DNA of 64,000 bases from Polytrichum commune. Lineage: Eukaryota > Streptophyta > Polytrichopsida > Polytrichales > Polytrichaceae. The notes under the pieces are model-generated. The model made no database searches. It saw only the letters and a list, made by a program, of their open reading frames with translations, and was not told where the DNA came from. The stretch spans positions 8,680,001 through 8,744,000 of the forward strand of contig OX485809.1 in the NCBI GenBank assembly GCA_950295325.1, in the 5' to 3' direction. The position numbers and the translations under genes were made by a program. This document shows, piece by piece, positions 10,469 to 55,370 of this stretch (its first letter is position 1; each line of letters starts with the position of its first letter).

Positions 10469-11120
10469 TCCCACATCTCGGGGGGTGCACTGTACTAAAC
10501 ATGTACGAGTATACGTGAGTGCACATGAGGTGTATTGATTTGGACCTTGCCATATTACGTATACATATGGTATACATGTTATAATTTATAGTTATGTACA
10601 TATATGAAAGGCCTTTAAAAAGTATACAATAATTGTACTTGTATGGTAGTGTTACTATACTACATATCATAAGTTTTCATATTGGATGAAATTAGGATTA
10701 ACTAGGATTAACGAATTTTGTTAGCAACCTTATAGGGTAGTATGAACCATGTACAAGGTATCAAGGTAATATCGGGGAAAGAGGCAGTATTAGGGTTCTG
10801 AAATGATTCGTTCAGCTCAAAGTAACAAGGACCCTTTTCCCCTCCCATCCCTAGGTTTTTGTTTTCTCTTTTTGTTGGGCGCCGAAGGTTTTTGTTTTCT
10901 CTTCTGGCATAGCCTGCTTCTTTTGCCGACAACTGCTTTACTTTTCCTTCTTTCACCTGTTGCTTCCAGTGCTTCTCGGCGTCCCTGCTGCCGTGGGAAT
11001 CACCGAAAGTCCTGACATTGTCATGGCCTCGTTCTGAAATTCCCTCTCTATCAAATGCAAAGTTTGTTGTGGCTTATGTAATGGTAGGGGAGTCTAGAAT
11101 TTTAAAAAATACACTTGTTA

Positions 11121-11651
11121 TGGGGCATTCCCACTTGACATTAGTTAGAAGTAGTTTTAGTCTAAAAGCGGTTTTAGTTATCTAGGGTTCACACATACGG
11201 CTCTTTTTAGTGCCGAGCCTAGGTGGCAAATGATGTGGCATGGCTTAAAAGTGGAGGTTTTAAGCCTCAACCACCGACCCTCCCATCGGTACCTAAACAT
11301 GAGGCAAGAATATAGGAACTTTAAAAGTGTTGCCTCCCACCCTTGTGATTGGTTGCTTTTTAGTCTTAGCTATGAGGGCACGAGGAGCTTCATTAACAAA
11401 AACCGATGGCAAGATAGGTGAGTAGTAAGGCATTTGGGGATGGGACAAAAACTACCCAACATTCATTGCTTGGTAGATAAAACCATGAACATGTGTGAAA
11501 GCTACTTAACTAAAACCTACTTGAAAATCTCCGGAGCAAGTTCTTGTAGGTGCATTGGGATAGTCGGATGCCTCCGCTATAACCGAGGGAGCTTTACCCG
11601 GTTCTTAGGAAATACTTTGGGTCTTAACTAAAGTCAGGTGGGAATGCCCCA
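11121..11651. mobile_element. nested PIF/Harbinger-like MITE, 531 bp
   Basis: Inserted into the TIR element at a TTA (11118-11120, duplicated at 11652-11654). The termini are TGGGGCATTCCCAC and its complement, extending to about 24 bp with two mismatches. The equivalent position in copy 2 of the host element (about 44280-44282) is an uninterrupted single TTA, so the empty site proves the insertion. Same family as 8384-8888. Confidence 0.92.
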
Positions 11652-11699
11652 TTAGTCAATTGAATGGCAATCCTTCTTTGTGTAAAGATCGGTTGACTC

Positions 11700-12154
11700 A
11701 AATTAGAGTTGGCATATTATATATGAAGCCTAAACTCCTGAGTGCTGGAAACCATGACACTTTGTTAAAGCTTGGTTGTGACTGTGTTATGTGTTTTTTG
11801 AACACACCTGAAGCTAAAACTGTGAAAAAATGAGGTAGGCCAAAAAAATCTACTCGAGTCAAGGTTTGGTTTGTTGGGAGAGTTTATAGGATGCGGAGGA
11901 AGTTTGGTAATCGTGGAGTGGAGTATAGGGATCCAATTGACTTGATGGACCGTCCATCAAACGTGAAGATTGGTTTATGTTGGTATCAAAAAGGGGCTAA
12001 CAACAAGTGGACATATGATCTTACTGATCATTTGATGGTAGACTTAGAGACAATAATTGCATTGGCTATAATGAAATATATTGGTGAATCAAATATTTAT
12101 GAGTTACATCCGGGAGATGAAAAAATTTCCAACGACTTTGTTGATGAAAGCTAG
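11700..12154 (+). pseudogene. AT-hook reading frame of the TIR element, copy 1 (interrupted)
   Basis: The frame reads through LLKLGCDCVMCFLNTPEAKT and then hits an in-frame TGA at about 11831-11833, where copy 2 keeps CGA within a KKRGRPKK AT-hook. It continues open from there to a stop at 12152-12154, with YRMRRKFGNRGVEYRDPIDL and TDHLMVDLETIIALAIMKY. The nested MITE separates it from its upstream part. AT-hooks bind the minor groove of AT-rich DNA, but I do not recognise the protein family. It could be a captured host fragment or an accessory element protein. Confidence 0.6.
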
Positions 12155-12405
12155 GATATTTTGTTATACATATAATAGGGGTTGATTGTTGTTCAAAAAT
12201 ATATTTGTATACTTATGTTAATGACTATATATGAATGGATGTTTTTTTGTGTATACATATTGTTACTTGTATATTTATTGTTGCAATTGTATGTGTATTA
12301 CTTCATTTCACAAAAAATAACTTGTATATAGGGGGTTTTTAGAGTATGCAGTGAACGCACGTGATTCTAGGTTTTAATGAAAGGTGCACCCCCCGAGTCC
12401 CACAT

Positions 12406-30493: not shown

Positions 30494-32045
30494 GATGGAT
30501 CCAAGTGGGAGAAATGAAGGCCCTACAATGGTCGTTTTGGATGAATATTTCAAACCATCTTTGTGTGATGACGGTGAGGAGCGCGAAAAATAAGTGGGAG
30601 ATCACTTGGTTGCAAATGAAGAAACAATCGAAATAACCGTGAAGAATCACGGTCGCATTGATAGATTTGGCATAGATGGAAAATGTCCTAAGAGGGAGCG
30701 GCGCCTAGTTGGAAAGTGGTGGAAGAATCATATTCTACCCCAACACGCCGAAGAACGGACCAATGTGGAATTTTTGGACGATCTTTTGAATTTGTGCAAA
30801 ATGTTAAGATCCGAAAATGCAAGCAAGTGGGAGGCTGCAATGCAAGAGGAATACAACTCACTAATGGCCAACGGTCTATGGAATTGACCAACCTTTATAA
30901 GAATCGCAAGAGTGTAGGATGCCAATGGGTGTTCCGCACCAAAAGGGATGCATAAGGTGAAATTGTTAGATATAAGGCGCAGTTAGTAGCAAAATGATAT
31001 TCTTAAGTGGCCAAAGTGGATTTCAATGAGACATTTATCCCTGTGGCCAAATTTATCACCATTAGGTGCATTATCACAATAAGAGTGGCTATGGATTGGG
31101 AGATCCACCAAATGAACGAAAAGACATCATTTTGAATGAAATATTGGATGTGAAGATTTACATGGATCAACCGGAGGGTTTCATACAATCACCTTGTGTG
31201 CAAACTCAAGAAAACTTTGTACATGTTCAAGCAATTATCGAGGGTGTGGTACATTATATTGACTCATTCTTCATCAACGAGGGCTATTGTAGGATCATTC
31301 ATTATAAGTCAAATAAGTAGGTGAGTATTTGTTGGCGACAATCCTCTACGTGGACAATTTGATCATATTGGCAAACAATGTAGCCCAGTTGAAGTGGCTC
31401 AAATTGGAACTCGAGAAAGAATTTGAAATGAGCAATGTCTAAGAGTTGTATTATTACCTAGGAATGGAATTTGAGAGGAATAGGGAACCCCGTATCATTA
31501 CCATGAACCAAAGGAACTACATTGAGGAGGTCCTTAAGCATTTCAACATGGAAGAATGTAAACCGGTTGGAACTCCATTCGATGCGAATTCAATATTGTT
31601 ATTATTTTCGGATGAGGAATTTTGGAATGTACAAAGAAAAATGGAAGGTGTTCCATACAAGGCCAGGGTAGGATCTCTCATGTATGCAATGGTGGCCACA
31701 ATGGCTAATATTGCATTTGCGGTGAGTACGGTGAGCCAATTTATGTCGAAAGCCGGTCCACCGCATTGGATGGCCATAAAATACATCGTGAGGTATTTGA
31801 AAGGCATTTCAAATTATGCCTCATAGGCTAGATATCACTTTTAGAGGATTTTGTGATGCGGATTGGGGGTGATATGCAAACAACTAGCAATCCATCACAG
31901 AGTATGTGTTTTTTGTTGGCGTTAGAGTCATTTTGTGGAAATGCAAGAAACAACCTACCATTGCATTGTCTACGACGAAGGCAAAGTACATGGCCACTAT
32001 CCTCCCCAAGACACAACAAAAATTATGGGAGAAACAACTAAGTAT
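30494..32045 (+). mobile_element. degenerate Ty1/copia pol fragment, second element
   Basis: The RT-RNase H part of a copia polyprotein, with several stops and frameshifts. Visible in order: ENASKWEAAMQEEYNSL at about 30812-30864, SVGCQWVFRTKRDA to 30952, VDFNETFIPVAKF near 31020-31055, IYMDQPEGF near 31155-31185, the active-site region LYVDNLIIL at about 31341-31370, YYYLGMEFERN at 31446 on, GSLMYAMVATMANIAFAVS near 31670-31730, and an RNase H section with FCDADWG near 31847-31872 and LSTTKAKYMA near 31965-32000. The active site reads YVDN rather than YVDD, so a catalytic aspartate is lost. It is not closely similar in detail to the copia remnant at 487-2045. A LINE abuts it. Confidence 0.85.
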
Positions 32046-34249: not shown

Positions 34250-34715
34250 ACCGGAAGTATGTGTAAGCGTCGTTGTGGATAGTGAAACAGCAAATTTCTA
34301 CTCCAGCTTTTGCACAAAACTGTTGTCTCCGACACGAACATCATCTACTTACACTTGCTAGGTATATGCTACGTTTTAATTTCAACACTCCCCAAGGCCT
34401 GCAGCAATTCTACTTCAAGAGGTGAAGTATGTTACAGAGAGATGTTAAGTATGTTACAGAGAGATGTTTGTGTGATCACCTTATGGTCCACCGCATCGTT
34501 GTAGACAGTGAAACGACAAAATTTAACTCCAGGTCTTCCATAAAAACTGTTGTTTTTGAAACGAACATCACCTACTTACACTTACTATGCAATATGGGTA
34601 TCCTGGTTTCAACACTCCCGAAGGCCTAGAGCAATTGTACTTCGAGAGATGAAGTATGTTACAGGGAGACGTTTATGTGATAACCTTATGTTCCATCACA
34701 TTGAGCATTCAGTAG
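34250..34715. repeat. tandem repeat of about 226 bp, 3' of the minus-strand histidine-rich gene
   Basis: The anchor CGTTGTGGATAGTGAAAC (34271) recurs as CGTTGTAGACAGTGAAAC (34497). The block TACTTACACTTGCT/TTACTATG and the ACTTCAAGAGGTGAAGTATG block recur in step, with a partial third unit ending at the stop side of the gene. It also includes a local GTATGTTACAGAGAGATGTT duplication (34427-34470). Lies immediately downstream of the stop codon of the minus-strand gene, so it may be its 3' UTR. Confidence 0.7.
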
Positions 34716-34720
34716 TTTCT

Positions 34721-35395
34721 TCAGGGCGAGGGGTTGATGTTGTCTTTGTCGTTGTTTTTCTCGTCGAGTGCCATGACAGCCAGTGCTTCATTGGCTTCCT
34801 CCACGCCCTCCGCAGTGACAGGGACGAGGTTTTCGACGTCGTTGATCGGTACATTAGTCGTGGCGGAGCTGCCTCTCTCACCAGAATGGCAACAACGATC
34901 AGGAGGTGAAGCGCATCGCCTCATGCCGACATGGCGGTTCAAGTGACCGAAATGATGACATCTCTTAACTATATGGTGGCCGCCATGGCGTTTCTTATGG
35001 CCACAATGTCGGTGTGGAACAAAGTCGAGAAAAATCATCTCGGTGATAGCAGGCCCTTGAGAAGGACCTGAATCGTCGTTTCCGGTTTCTGGATGGAGGC
35101 AATGCTCTTGTTCAGAACTGGATGATGGAACCATGCCGACATGGCCGTTGAATATCAAGTGGCCATGGTGATAGTGGCTGTGGTGACCATGATGGCCACG
35201 GTGGTGCCGCCCGACAAATCTCGGAGGTCCAGAAGAAGTTGGACAATGGTGAGGATGGCTGCCATGAGGAGGAAGGACAAGTGGATGTGATCTGTGGTGT
35301 AATTTGAAGTGATGGTGAGGGCGGAGACGACATCCATAACCGTGTTCTCTTTCTCCCGAAAACGGCGTTAGTATCATCGTGTCTGCAGCCACCAT
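34721..35395 (-). CDS. histidine-rich protein of unknown function, 224 aa (paralogue of 37398-38462)
   Basis: One uninterrupted frame with no intron in the coding part. About 35 of 224 residues are histidine (some 16%), concentrated at 27-80 in H/G/R clusters such as GHHGHHSHYHHGH and again at 128-155. No signal peptide or membrane segment. The start is supported because the paralogue shares M-x-AADTM from the first residue. Also shared: CLHPE (99-103), GPAITE (114-119), HSGERG (170-175) and an acidic C-terminal block (170-211) with PINDVE and ALAVMALDE, ending NPSP. Metal binding, or a disordered stress protein, are possible readings of the composition only; I recognise no family. It is transcribed away from its paralogue, with about 2.0 kb between start codons. 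It is shorter than the paralogue mainly in the centre. Confidence 0.8.
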   Translation of the reverse strand: MVAADTMILTPFSGEREHGYGCRLRPHHHFKLHHRSHPLVLPPHGSHPHHCPTSSGPPRFVGRHHRGHHGHHSHYHHGHLIFNGHVGMVPSSSSEQEHCLHPETGNDDSGPSQGPAITEMIFLDFVPHRHCGHKKRHGGHHIVKRCHHFGHLNRHVGMRRCASPPDRCCHSGERGSSATTNVPINDVENLVPVTAEGVEEANEALAVMALDEKNNDKDNINPSP

Positions 35396-35520
35396 AATTT
35401 GATTTTAAGGCACGAAAGCTCCTAGAGAAAATTCCTTAAAAGAGTCTCACAACAACGCGATGCAACTGGTACTGAGGAGAAAAGTCTGATTTCGAGATGG
35501 GCTATGGTATTAAAGAGGAG

Positions 35521-35800
35521 GACTCAGATAAGTCCCTCTGATCGCAATAGCTTCCGATCGGAATTGCGAGGCAAACTTATTAAGGAGAGCCAACCTGGGA
35601 AGAAATTTGGTTAATAGGCAAGCTTCTAGTCTCCCTTTGAAACTTCGCAAGAGAAAGAGTTCTCAAATTAAAGACTCTCAGCACAAAGTGCAAGAGATAA
35701 AGAACAACCTGATCTTCAGATGGCTGTGGTGTTGACGAGAGAATGGTGCCGACAAGTCCCGTGGCAATAACAGCTTCAAAAATTGTGAGGCAGTTTCGTT
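35521..35800 (-). repeat. duplicated leader block upstream of the minus-strand histidine-rich gene
   Basis: A block reading, on the minus strand, GCCTCACAATTTTTGAAGCT then GGGACTTGTC (35791-35747) recurs 219 bp downstream in that direction as GCCTCGCAATTCCGATCGGA, AGCTATTG, GGGACTTATC (35572-35525). The plus-strand paralogue has a single copy, GCCTCCCAATTCTGAAGCTG then GGGACTTGTC (37200-37239). So the duplication arose in the minus-strand gene after the pair split, or was lost from the other. Confidence 0.7.
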
Positions 35801-35878
35801 AAAGAGCGGATTTCTTCGTAACAAAGGAGGAGAATCTTCCCGAACTCAACGATGAATTGCTGGTGTGAACACACGGGG

Positions 35879-36018
35879 CTTTCATAGGGGGTTCGGAGGA
35901 GAGCAATCGTGCTACTCAAGGCTCCCTTAAATAAAAAAAGAGAGTCGGTGATCAGCCTCGTGACTTGTGTGGCAAGCATCGTATCATTAGGAGTGGGCCA
36001 GACCGGAAAGGAAGCTTC
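35879..36018 (-). promoter_or_regulatory. promoter of the minus-strand histidine-rich gene
   Basis: Minus-strand elements: a TATA-like CTATGAAAG (35887-35879); upstream a conserved block CACAAGTCACGAGGCTGATC followed by ACCGACTCT (35970-35942); and a perfect heat-shock-element core GAAGCTTC (36018-36011). The first two are aligned with the promoter of the paralogue. The TATA-like box differs from the paralogue's TATAAAA by one base (TATGAAA), which may weaken it. Confidence 0.6.
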
Positions 36019-36901
36019 CACACTTCTTGCTGGTATGTATACTACTTGTGCTTTCATTTTAACAGGTATTAGCATATTTCAATAAGAAAATGAATAGTTG
36101 TTAGATCAATCATCGCATCTTGACGTGCAAGGATTAATCTTCTCACTTATTCGACCTGGAAAGTTTCTATGTAAGTAGTGTGTGGTCATTTGCAGGATTA
36201 TGAGTAAGTTCCAATACACCGAAGTCACTAGAAAAATCATGTTTAGAAACGAACTGGAACCATGGAAGTTTGATGGCCAGGAATCCTGTGCTTGAAGGGC
36301 TCTAATCTGTGGAGTTGTTTCCAAGGTTCTTCACGTCTGGTAGATTTGGTAATTTTAATTTAGACAAGAAATACAATAATGCGATTAGGTGAGTAGAGCT
36401 TTTCCATAAAGATGTATCAGATTTTCCAATTAGGGTTTCCCCATGACAAGAACTCTGCAATGTCGAGTCTGCGATTGTTCTTTGTGCAATAAACTTCTCG
36501 GATTTTATGAATTTTAGAAACCTTTGGTACGTAGAACTTCAACTCTGAGCCAATTGATGTCGCCAAGAAATTGGTCAGTGAATGTGAAGTTCAGGAATTA
36601 TATTGGAAGCCTTCTTCTATGTCTCATCAATTGGACTTTTCCCTCTCGGCAGGGAAGAGCCTCACGCAGTCCCAGATTATTTGAAACTTGTTCCTGTCCT
36701 TTTTGGTGCAATTGTCGATAAAATATTTTGGAAGCTGATCAAACACTGCAATCCTTACTATATTTGAGGTCTTCCATATATTCTGCTTGTTTGCTTTATG
36801 AGCTAAATATCGATTGTTTCCAATTTTAGCTGATTACAATAATGAGTAACTACGTTCTGACTCTGCACGCAAGCGAAAGAATCCATAGAAAAGTCTCCAA
36901 G

Positions 36902-37080
36902 TTCAAGAAATTACCTCTGACGCTCTGATATAGTTCTTGGGACACAAGTTACGAGGCTCATCACCGACTCTTGTTCTTTTCGTCCGGAGGACGAGCCTTG
37001 GCTACCACGTTTTGCTCCATCTCCTCCGAAGTCTATAAAACTCCCATGCCCACACCACCAATTCATCTTTGCTTCTCAGG
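36902..37080 (+). promoter_or_regulatory. promoter of the plus-strand histidine-rich gene
   Basis: From 5' to 3': heat-shock-element core TTCAAGAA (36902-36909); the conserved block CACAAGTTACGAGGCTCATC then ACCGACTCT (36943-36971); CCTCCGAAG; TATAAAA (37034-37040); then CCCACACCACCAATTCATC, which has a close match just downstream of the TATA-like box of the mirror-image gene. Spacing from the heat-shock core to TATA is about 125 bp in both genes. Confidence 0.68.
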
Positions 37081-37397
37081 ATTTACATCCTCCAGCTTCT
37101 GATTACTTCTCATCTTACTCCTCGCTGTAAGTACAGTACCTTCAATCCTGGTGAGTGCGCTCTTTGTTAACGGAGAATCCCTCTTTTTCTACAAGTCTGC
37201 CTCCCAATTCTGAAGCTGCTATCGTCGAGGGACTTGTCTGTCAATAGCATAACCATCTGGACATCAGGTTACTCTCCTGTCAGTGCGATTCGTCGAAGTG
37301 AGACTCTTTTAAGGAATTCCCTCTCTTGCGATACCAGATCTCAGTTGGTTTCCGGGTTGTTTGTTTGTTTTGAAAGTGTAAGCTGCATCCAGTATCC

Positions 37398-38462
37398 ATG
37401 GCTGCTGCAGACACGATGATGGTGGTGAGCCCCATGGGTGAAGGGGGACGCGGTCATGGTTGCGGATTACTCCATCATGATCGCCTCCGCCCACACCAGC
37501 ACCGCTTCAAACCTCACAGACCGCATCCGCTCCTCGTCCCTCCTCCCCATGGCAGCCTCTGTCCACCTTCTTGTGGACCTCCCAGGCCTTTCGGGTGTCA
37601 CCACCACCCTGGCCATAGCCATGGTCGACACCTGATCCCCCATCACTCTTGCCCTCATGTAATGGGAGGTGAGCTGATTGGCTTGGATGATCAGGATCCT
37701 ATCGTGCCTCCTCATCATCACCATCACCCTGGACCTCCGGCTTTCGCTGGATTTCTTGGCCCGCACCTTCACCACCCTGGTCACCGCTCTCACCACCGCC
37801 GCCATGGCCGCGTTAACCCTGACGCACATGACGTCGGTGGGCTTGATCCCTCGGTGGCTGACTGCTCCTTATCTGGTTCTGAAGAAGAGGATTGCCTCCA
37901 TCCAGAACCCCGGAATACCGATGGATTCCCCCTGGGGGGTCCTGCAATCACCGAGAACTTTGTCGAGAATTTCCGGCCGCCGCCGCCGCCCCCTCCTGCC
38001 CCCATGCATATGATGATGATGCACTGGGGACATGCAGGTCGATTTATGCATGCAGGTGAGCTACCGTTGCGTCATAGGGGTAGCGAAACTCCACACGACT
38101 TATTAGCTGACTTAATACGAATACGCGATGCGAACTCTTCCTTCGATCATGACCTCGAAAAGGCCCTCCGGATTCGTTTACTGCGACATGGTGGCCGCCG
38201 CATGAGGCACCATGGCGGCAGGCGATGCACTTCAGTACCTCATGGTACTCCTCATGGTTGCCACCCTCACCCGGATGCCGCAGTTCTCATGCGTGGCCAT
38301 TCCGGTGAGAGAGGCAACATTGCCACGACTAGTGCACCGATCGATGATGTCGAAACCCCTAACCCTGGAGCTGCAGAGAAGGGTGTGGAGGACACCAATG
38401 ACGCACTGGCTCTCATGGCACTCGACGACACTACTAAAACCGACGTCAATCCCTCGCACTGA
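37398..38462 (+). CDS. histidine-rich protein of unknown function, 354 aa (paralogue of 34721-35395)
   Basis: One open frame, ATG in a good context (CCATGGC). About 47 of 354 residues are histidine (13%), with proline and arginine also high. Regions: H/P-rich 20-115 with an H5 run at 106-110; H/R-rich 122-145; an acidic EEED at 162-165; CLHPE (166-170); GPAITE (181-186); a P7 run (194-200); MHMMMMHWGHAGRFMH (203-218); a possible short helix 233-262 (DLLADLIRIRD); an H/R/G segment 263-292; and HSGERG (301-306), leading to the C-terminal block with PIDDVE and ALALMALDD, ending NPSH. No signal peptide or transmembrane segment. The C-terminal block (301-345) aligns closely with the minus-strand paralogue; the middle (about 195-295) is largely private. 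Possible heat-shock control from the promoter; function unknown. A GTAAGT at about 37127 could mark a leader intron. Confidence 0.82.
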   Translation: MAAADTMMVVSPMGEGGRGHGCGLLHHDRLRPHQHRFKPHRPHPLLVPPPHGSLCPPSCGPPRPFGCHHHPGHSHGRHLIPHHSCPHVMGGELIGLDDQDPIVPPHHHHHPGPPAFAGFLGPHLHHPGHRSHHRRHGRVNPDAHDVGGLDPSVADCSLSGSEEEDCLHPEPRNTDGFPLGGPAITENFVENFRPPPPPPPAPMHMMMMHWGHAGRFMHAGELPLRHRGSETPHDLLADLIRIRDANSSFDHDLEKALRIRLLRHGGRRMRHHGGRRCTSVPHGTPHGCHPHPDAAVLMRGHSGERGNIATTSAPIDDVETPNPGAAEKGVEDTNDALALMALDDTTKTDVNPSH

Positions 38463-43536: not shown

Positions 43537-44955
43537 CTCGGGGGGTGCACCTTTCATTAAAACCTAGAATCACGTGCGTTCACTGCATACTCTAAAAACC
43601 CCCTATATACAAGTTTTTTTTTGTGAAATGAAGTAATACACATACAATTGCAACAATAAATATACAAGTAACAATATGTATACACAAAAAAACATCCATT
43701 CATATATAGTCATTAACATAAGTATACAAATATATTTTTGAACAATAATCAACCCCTATAATATGTATAACAAAATATCCTAGCTTTCATCAGCAAAGTC
43801 GTTGAAAACTTTTTCATCTCCCGGATGTAACTCATAAACATTTGATTCACCAATATATGTCATTATAGCCAATGCAATTATTGTCTATAAGTCTACCATC
43901 AAATGATCAGTAAAATCATATGTCCACTTGTTGTTAGCCCCTTTTTAATACCAACATAAACCAATCTCCACGTTTAATGGACGGTCCATCAAGTCAATTG
44001 GATCCCTATACTCCACCCCACGATTACCAAACTTCCTCCGCATCCTATAAACTCTCCCAACAAACCAAACCTTAACTCGAGTAGATTTTTTTGGCCTACC
44101 TCGTTTTTTCACAGTTTTAGCTTCAGGTGTGTTCAAAAAACACACAACACAGTCACAACCAAGCTTTAATAAAGTGTCATGGTTTCTAGCACTCAGGAGT
44201 TTAGGCTTCATATATAATATGCCAGCTCTAATTCGAGTCAACCGATCTTTACACAAAGAAGGATTGCCATTCAATTGACTAACAAGTGTACTTTTAAAAA
44301 TTCTAGACTCCCGTACCATTACATAAGCCACAGTTGACTTTGCATTTGATAGAGAGGGAATTTCAGAACGAGGCCATGACAATGTCAGGACTTTTGGTGA
44401 TTCCCACAGCAGTAGTAACCACAGGGACGCTGAGAAGCGCTGGAAGCAACATGTGAAAGAAGGAAAAGTAAAGCAGTTGTCGGCAAATGAAGCAGGCTAT
44501 GCGAGAAGAGAAAACAAAAACCTTCGGCGCCTGACTAGAAGAGAAAACAAAAACCTTCAGCGCCCAACAAAAAGAGAAAACAAAAACCTAGGGATGGGAG
44601 GGGAAAAGGGTCCTTGTTACTTTGAGCTGAACGAATCATTTTAGAACCCTAATACTGCCTCTTTCCCCAATATTACCTTGATACCTTGTACATGGTTCAT
44701 ACTACCCTATAAGGTTGCTAACAAAAATCGTTAATCCTAATTTCATCCAATATGAAAACTTATGATATGTAGTATAGTAACACTACCATACAAGTACAAT
44801 TATTGTATACTTTTTAAAGGCCTTCCATATATGTATGTAATTATAAATTATAACATGTATACCATATGTATACGTAATACGGCAAGGTCCAAATCAATAC
44901 CCCTCTTGTGCACTCACGTATACTCGTACATGTTTAGTACAGTGCACCCCCCAAG
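43537..44955 (-). mobile_element. TIR DNA element, copy 2 (inverted, 8-bp TSD CTTGGGCC)
   Basis: A 1419-bp element with ends CTCGGGGGGTGCAC and, at the other side, GTGCACCCCCCAAG (one mismatch in 14). Exact 8-bp duplications CTTGGGCC lie at 43529-43536 and 44956-44963. It is the reverse complement of 10477-12397 along its whole length but lacks the nested MITE. It has three copies of the AGGTTTTTGTTTTCTCTT motif near 44587-44505, where copy 1 has two. Confidence 0.86.
43790..44382 (-). pseudogene. AT-hook reading frame of the TIR element, copy 2
   Basis: Open from 44382 to 43945 on the minus strand, about 145 codons with no ATG at the 5' end, so an upstream exon is likely. Then a CAA-to-TAA change at the GLCWY/Q position, and a second stop in a glutamate codon further on. 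Shows RIRAGILYMKPKLLSARNHD, the cysteine cluster LGCDCVVCFLNT, the AT-hook KKRGRPKKSTRV and YRMRRKFGNRGVEYRDPIDL. The AT-hook is intact here but stopped in copy 1, while the region after GLCWY is open in copy 1. So the two copies carry different disabling changes. Family unrecognised. Confidence 0.6.
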
Positions 44956-51932: not shown

Positions 51933-52720
51933 GGATTGGGTTGATCACTTTTGAGGTGTAGTGGGAGTGAAGCCTCGCTATTTCGTTTGCATGTATAACT
52001 TCTATGTAGGAAAACCACTGTTAAGACTAGGTAAGGTTGCGAGGGGTACTCAAACTTACGCCATCCGACCTTCTGATGAGGTCCCACAGTACATGGGAGG
52101 GGTAGTACAGAAAGCGATACGGGTCGCTCAATTATCCCAGATTTATTAGACCCCAATCACCTGTAGCTGGAATGGTCTGTCGGAAGAGGGAGAAAAACCA
52201 GATAGGTTAAGATGCTGGATCGGGTTGATCACTTCTGAGGTGTAGTGGGAGTGAAACCTCGTTGGTTCGTTTGCCTGTATAATTTCTATGTGGGAAAACC
52301 GCTGCTAGGACTGGGTAAGGTTGCGAGGGGTACTCGAACTTACGCCATCCGACCTTCTGATGAGGTCCCATAGTACCTGGGAGGGGTAGTACGGAGAGCG
52401 GTACGGGTCGCTTAGTTATCCCATATTTATTAGACCCCAGTCACCTGTAGCCGGAATGGTCTGTCGGAAGAGGGAGAAAAACCAGATAGGTTAGGATGTT
52501 GGATCGGGTTGATCACTTCTGAGGTGTAGTGGGAGTGAAACCTCGTTGGTTCGTTTGCCTGTATAACTTCTATGTGGGAAAACCGCTGTTAGGACTAGGT
52601 AAGGTTGCGAGGGGTACTCGAACTTACGCCATCCGACCTTCTGATGAGGTCCCACAGTACCTGGGAGGGGTAGTTTGAAGAGCGGTACGGGTCACCCAGT
52701 TATCCCATATTTATAGACCT
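51933..52720 (+). repeat. tandem repeat, period 284 bp, about 2.8 copies
   Basis: Units start at 51933, 52217 and 52501 with GGAT(T/C)GGGTTGATCACTT. Spacing is exactly 284 bp both times and units are highly similar. 284 is not a multiple of three, and the 62-codon frame of unit 1 does not stay open through the others, so the array is non-coding. It sits just inside the putative LTR element, as subrepeats in untranslated regions of gypsy elements often do. Confidence 0.9.
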
Positions 52721-55124: not shown

Positions 55125-55370
55125 CACTAGAAGAAAACTTGTCCATTACAATCGTCTATTTCGGCTTGGCCATTGTGACTCGTGGCGAGAATATGCGTAA
55201 ACAAATCATTTTGGTTGTCAACCGAAGGTTTTTGGTTGTAGTTTTTGGATAATTGACAACCGCAACCCTTTGGTTGACAATGAAAATGATTTGATTATGC
55301 ATTTCCTCGCCATGAGTCACAATGACCAAATCACAAAGGATGGTTGTAATGGACAAGTTTTCTTCTAGTG
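55125..55370. mobile_element. CACTA-type foldback MITE, 246 bp, TCT target duplication
   Basis: The ends CACTAGAAGAAAACTTGTCC and its complement are inverted; the arms extend almost to the centre. Flanks are TCT at 55122-55124 and 55371-55373. The start is one base from the CACTACAAGAAAA terminus typical of plant CACTA (En/Spm) elements, and 3-bp duplications are the rule for that class. Non-coding; transcripts would form a long hairpin. Confidence 0.9.

Follow-up and report, generated by a model that had tools for sequence, protein, structure and literature searches.

At this locus two histidine-rich open reading frames face away from each other, and the question is whether they are genes at all and, if so, what their products would do. 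The window analyzed, i.e. the whole stretch of DNA of 64,000 nucleotides, contains 172 open frames of at least 70 aa, the pair included. The original prediction described divergent single-exon coding regions of 224 and 354 aa, and both frames are indeed present, back-to-back with approximately 2 kb of intergenic space, and single-exon as far as the coding part is concerned. The coding features, derived from the open reading frames and their translations, are as follows.

34721-35395, minus strand: coding sequence of gene A (224 aa, 35 His)
37398-38462, plus strand: coding sequence of gene B (354 aa, 47 His)
34761-34893, minus strand: conserved block at the C-terminus of A, from HSGERG to ALAVMALD, 77% and 90% identical to B at the DNA level in the inverted pairs I1 and I2
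38293-38428, plus strand: conserved block at the C-terminus of B, from HSGERG to ALALMALD, 77% and 90% identical to A in the same two pairs

The proposed paralogy was confirmed by blastp of A on B, which with the low-complexity filter and the composition correction switched off gave 130 bits (E 5e-41) and 120 identical columns out of 358 over near full length. All the islands named beforehand (M-x-AADTM, CLHPE, GPAITE, HSGERG, PI[N/D]DVE, ALA[V/L]MALD and NPS[P/H]) are common to A and B. At the DNA level the homology continues upstream via the leader into the promoter, and no homology was found by blastn (E 1e-3) beyond the stop codons when about 440-500 nt of downstream sequence were included. 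A and B, presumably both functional genes, would go back to a single gene that was duplicated long ago in inverted orientation, together with its promoter and leader. Just downstream of A, where its 3' untranslated region may lie, there is a tandem duplication of approximately 180 bp (34267-34446 and 34493-34673, 79% identical).

For evaluation of the coding capacity, gaps no more than 15 columns apart in the A-B DNA alignments were merged into clusters and their lengths summed, with the same rule applied to the leaders. The net indel was a multiple of three in all 8 clusters of the coding part vs 1 of 9 in the leaders, and for unmerged gaps the corresponding numbers were 6/12 and 1/16. Together with the ATG-free leaders and the relatives that keep the frame, both described below, these in-frame net indels argue that A and B are genes, and very probably they are real genes born by duplication.

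The original prediction also held that the conserved islands, the C-terminal one included, reflect selection on the protein. In a codon alignment that is uncertain in the His-rich linkers, omega for A vs B was 0.48 (0.34-0.65) over all 220 aligned codons, 0.41 (0.25-0.60) for the 167 that remain when the C-terminal block is left out and 0.69 (0.32-1.54) over the 52 codons of the block alone, an interval that includes 1. The claim is thus borne out for the pair as a whole, where selection is purifying overall, and not for the block by itself. The synonymous divergence of the block is 0.28 vs 0.59 elsewhere (permutation p 0.0008, equalled by 17 of 220 circular contiguous blocks) and its non-synonymous divergence 0.21 vs 0.35 (p 0.0036; 8 of 220 such blocks), and in the 49-nt piece encoding GVE..ALAxMALD (34761-34809 vs 38380-38428; 90% identical) the 15 codons carry one silent and four residue-changing differences. 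Because of the low synonymous divergence the similarity of the block seems to come at least partly from less-diverged DNA, as might be seen after local gene conversion or under a DNA-level constraint, and by itself the block does not show protein selection. The case for constraint on the protein would then lie with the codons outside it. Residues 301-342 are unchanged at 39/42 positions between B and P0001, 28/42 between B and P0002 and 39/41 between A and P0003 (relatives described below), no clear excess of constancy over the remaining residues.

Three non-circular tests for shared site constraint, which used sequences other than the pair compared and had little power, were all negative (p 0.79, 0.81 and 0.81), the changed positions in the three tests being 6/103 vs 8/111, 21/167 vs 5/51 and 46/192 vs 5/26. 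Island-versus-variable tests in which the islands were set by identity of A and B returned p values from 0.0006 to 0.03 and were rejected as circular, since the compared sequences help define the islands.

The upstream regions of both genes contain the following features.

35396-35882, minus strand: leader of A, free of ATG; nearest upstream ATG at 35885, inside the TATA-equivalent TATGAAA (35886)
37049-37397, plus strand: leader of B, free of ATG; nearest upstream ATG at 37046, 12 nt past the first base of TATAAA (37034)
35941-35976, minus strand: promoter block of A common with B, containing ACCGAC (32/36 identical; inverted repeat pair I3)
36936-36971, plus strand: promoter block of B common with A, containing ACCGAC (32/36 identical; inverted repeat pair I3)
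35851-35859, minus strand: CAATTCATC, presumed start-site block of A, 27 nt past the TATA-equivalent (pair I12)
37059-37067, plus strand: CAATTCATC, presumed start-site block of B, 25 nt past the TATA box (pair I12)

Nowhere in the window does the minus strand have a longer ATG-free gap than the 490 nt between the last upstream ATG and the start codon of A (next longest 400), and the same holds on the plus strand, by a thin margin, for the corresponding 352 nt of B (next longest 349). Dinucleotide shuffles gave p values for zero ATG of 0.003 for the A leader and 0.006 for the B leader; the stretches were picked after the ATGs were seen, and therefore the ranking within the window is the fairer measure. 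In both genes the ATG-free leader begins at about the TATA position, which counts for the gene reading, and the last upstream ATGs would lie upstream of the expected start site. The RNA structure of the leaders was no more stable than that of 100 shuffles (z 0.89 for B and -0.22 for A). The leader of A contains two diverged copies of a segment (35516-35585 and 35741-35805) that occurs once in the leader of B (37186-37245), and some of the extra length of the A leader could be accounted for by a tandem duplication long ago.

Besides CAATTCATC, a further smaller upstream block, TCTCCTCCGAA, is common to the two genes. The ACCGAC in the shared promoter block is presumably the core of a DRE/CRT element, with which it fits, but with six bases a chance occurrence is possible. 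Counted without a chance level, there are two occurrences of ACCGAC or the reverse-type core, five heat-shock-like GAAnnTTC/TTCnnGAA sites and one ACGTG/CACGT core upstream of A, compared with one of each upstream of B. TGCRCNC, which we take to be a metal-response pattern, has two sites upstream of B, one of which is in the leader, and none upstream of A, again counted without a chance level, so it lends no shared support to a role in metal handling.

A word-based, not exhaustive, search of protein databases produced three relatives, all of which keep the reading frame: P0001 (349 aa, 86% identical to B), P0002 (377 aa, 72% identical to B, with a frame extending 14 residues further upstream) and P0003 (225 aa, 90% identical to A over 94%). 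Their records carry no molecule type and thus do not prove transcription. The islands are looser in these proteins, with CLHPD in P0003, GPATTE, HSGEAC and PINEAE in P0002, and MALN instead of MALD in both. The search seeded with the C-terminal region, as originally proposed, gave six candidates and returned P0001; it missed P0002 and P0003, which carry the region, and a lack of distant relatives can therefore not be concluded from it. The assertion that the pair belongs to no known family agrees with the libraries searched: A and B had no match in Pfam or NCBIfam, a PDB search by sequence gave a single row at a meaningless E of 4, and when all five members were run against Pfam with E allowed up to 1, the sole family named was DUF6988, for B (0.31), which falls short of its cut-off. 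Two peptide patterns each, run against prokaryotic and viral contigs, yielded 45 and 27 matches, none of them confirmed. A published description of the protein was not among the literature matches listed; the main text of a paper on the moss YAN gene (PMC5908804) does not contain the word histidine. Text on RIN4/NOI (PMC3661340) had no bearing on A and B. The family thus appears to have very few recorded relatives and no described counterpart in the libraries and papers covered by this non-exhaustive search.

As for the surroundings, Pfam on 30 flanking open frames found only one family passing the cut-off, RVT_2 at 941-1570 (E 1.3e-20), a Copia reverse transcriptase fragment, while DUF7695, DUF3481, Sen15, DASH_Dad2 and HDV_ag were named below it. 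Further Copia-type RVT_2 pieces at 680-937 (3e-6) and 31443-31823 (1e-4) are likewise below the curated cut-off. A dispersed inverted repeat (10477-12397 and 43537-44955; two pieces, 89% and 97% identical) has the look of a recent mobile-element pair, and the 246 bp at 55125-55370 match their own reverse complement at 80%, like a fold-back element. Long open frames of 295, 119 and 313 aa in the G+C-richer segment 48486-50574 have no Pfam family at cut-off and are perhaps, we assume, a retroelement gag, and at 51933-52719 a 284-bp unit is repeated 2.8 times in tandem (92% matches). Rfam at the gathering threshold and ARAGORN each gave zero hits in the window. To judge from the look of the sequence and from the Copia fragment, the DNA may come from a land plant, perhaps a moss.

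With such neighbors the pair might itself be part of a dispersed repeat, or be captured by a mobile element, rather than form a host gene family. We consider this very unlikely, as self-blastn at E 1e-10, the repeat-copy check confined to the 64-kb window, shows no third copy, as A and B have a promoter and leader anatomy in common, and as only the three relatives above turned up in the word-based search. Hardly credible is the other way of denying the genes, namely that the frames are non-coding and merely open by composition in a duplicated non-coding transcript. It could appeal to the other long open frames that overlap B on the opposite strand and to the omega interval of the C-terminal block, but it is at odds with the in-frame indels in every coding cluster, with omega below 1 outside the block, and with the relatives, which are 72-90% identical and have similar frames and lengths.

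If A and B are genes, what would their protein do? The protein is rich in His, Pro and Gly, His amounting to 15.6% of A and 13.3% of B. AlphaFold2 on the five-sequence alignment gave a mean pLDDT of 39 with no residue at 70 or above, i.e. no confident fold; the protein is probably disordered, with which the low pLDDT fits, five sequences being few for such a prediction. No strong hydrophobic segment was found by hydropathy. HH pairs exceed composition shuffles in all five relatives (p 0.008-0.026; the sequences are related and the tests dependent), HxH is enriched in none of the five, HxxxH reaches p < 0.05 in A and P0003, and CxxC-like and C/H patterns are not above shuffles. In the pairs B-P0001 and A-P0003, pooled after the data were seen, His is kept at 79/82 positions vs 432/489 for other residues (p 0.03). 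In the same pool Gly, kept at 61/62 (p 0.01), does no worse than His, and such retention is thus not peculiar to His. The differences were not significant for B-P0002 (38/46 vs 226/302, p 0.35) or for A-B (21/34 vs 92/186, p 0.20).

The most likely mechanism, which we tentatively put at a probability of about 0.35, is binding of Zn, Cu or Ni by the clustered His residues at many sites with low affinity. A and B would encode a taxonomically restricted, probably disordered protein, which would be expressed in the cytosol or the nucleus, would respond to stress and would then act as a metal buffer and scavenger, the two copies being divided by expression or capacity. For this explanation we count the homology with its in-frame indels, omega, the leaders, the HH pairs, the pooled His retention, the absence of a strong hydrophobic segment, the lack of a confident fold and ACCGAC, as well as the Zn binding of two dehydrins (Kd 45 and 26 uM, from part of the text of PMC4215689). 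Against it count the retention of Gly, the non-significant His retention in B-P0002 and A-B, the HxH result, the absence of TGCRCNC at A, omega of the C-terminal block and the site-constraint tests.

A metal role and a condensate role are both possible from the composition, and the latter would make the protein a pH-switched polyampholyte: the fixed charges nearly cancel, His would set the net charge, and acidification of the cytosol in heat or drying would shift that charge and then solubility, giving a reversible stress condensate. Calculated with pKa values from textbooks, and with P0002 counted from MAAADTMM onward, the net charge goes from -4 to +29 for B and from +1 to +26 for A between pH 7.5 and 6.0, and from -10 to +3 up to +23 to +30 for the other three, all five having about -10 to +10 at pH 7.0-7.5. 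This curve and the lack of a confident fold are in line with the idea, as is the pH-dependent phase separation of His-rich squid beak proteins, but the same curve is expected of any His-rich protein, and a squid-derived peptide loses phase separation when one of its two Tyr is changed to Ala, where the present proteins have 0 to 2 Tyr each (both squid results from part of the text of PMC6884462). We regard this role as unlikely, though worth keeping in mind. Somewhat less likely still is nucleic-acid binding via the Arg/Gly/His-rich segment, RIRLLRHGGRRMRHHGGRRC in B, with the remainder as a spacer; B and P0001 have the same sequence here, and P0002 departs from it by one change, but A and P0003 retain only a reduced basic segment in a different order, and none of the five proteins has a Pfam family at cut-off. 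It is more doubtful again that the pair represents a new lineage-restricted disordered family of a non-seed plant, in which selection-held His would serve as a combined metal and pH switch, a condensate would form or dissolve on drying or heat, and expression would start from a stress promoter, itself duplicated, that is followed by a long leader for scanning.

Returning to the preferred explanation of metal buffering, it concerns a pair of orphan genes for His-rich and probably disordered proteins, a kind already known and not a new type of system. In the early cold response of the moss Physcomitrella orphan genes are over-represented, 157 responding orphans (40.2%) being unannotated according to part of the text of PMC4301180. 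If the pair belongs to such a plant, it would be a clearly bounded object for testing: the genes are complete in their anatomy and have a promoter block in common, close relatives are already recorded, and simple biochemical predictions follow from the composition.

Dehydrins with His-rich stretches (group 2 LEA), e.g. AtHIRD11, are disordered, hydrophilic and His-containing. The A/B family appears alike in these respects, and for dehydrins metal binding is known or proposed. It differs in having no Pfam match at cut-off and no K-segment, since without gaps none of the five proteins agrees with the consensus at more than 3 or 4 of its 15 positions, whereas dehydrins are defined by at least one such Lys-rich segment (part of the text of PMC4215689). 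The likeness to metallothioneins is limited to the proposed metal buffering, the proteins of the A/B family, 224 to 377 aa long, having 7 to 12 Cys each, with CxC in one of the five (P0002, once). With the squid beak His-rich proteins the family shares the richness in His and Gly, the lack of a confident fold and a pH-sensitive calculated charge, no homology being claimed; unlike them (part of the text of PMC6884462) it has, with so few Tyr, no GHGxY repeats. A coacervate-like way of working is still conceivable without these repeats, as other contacts could serve.
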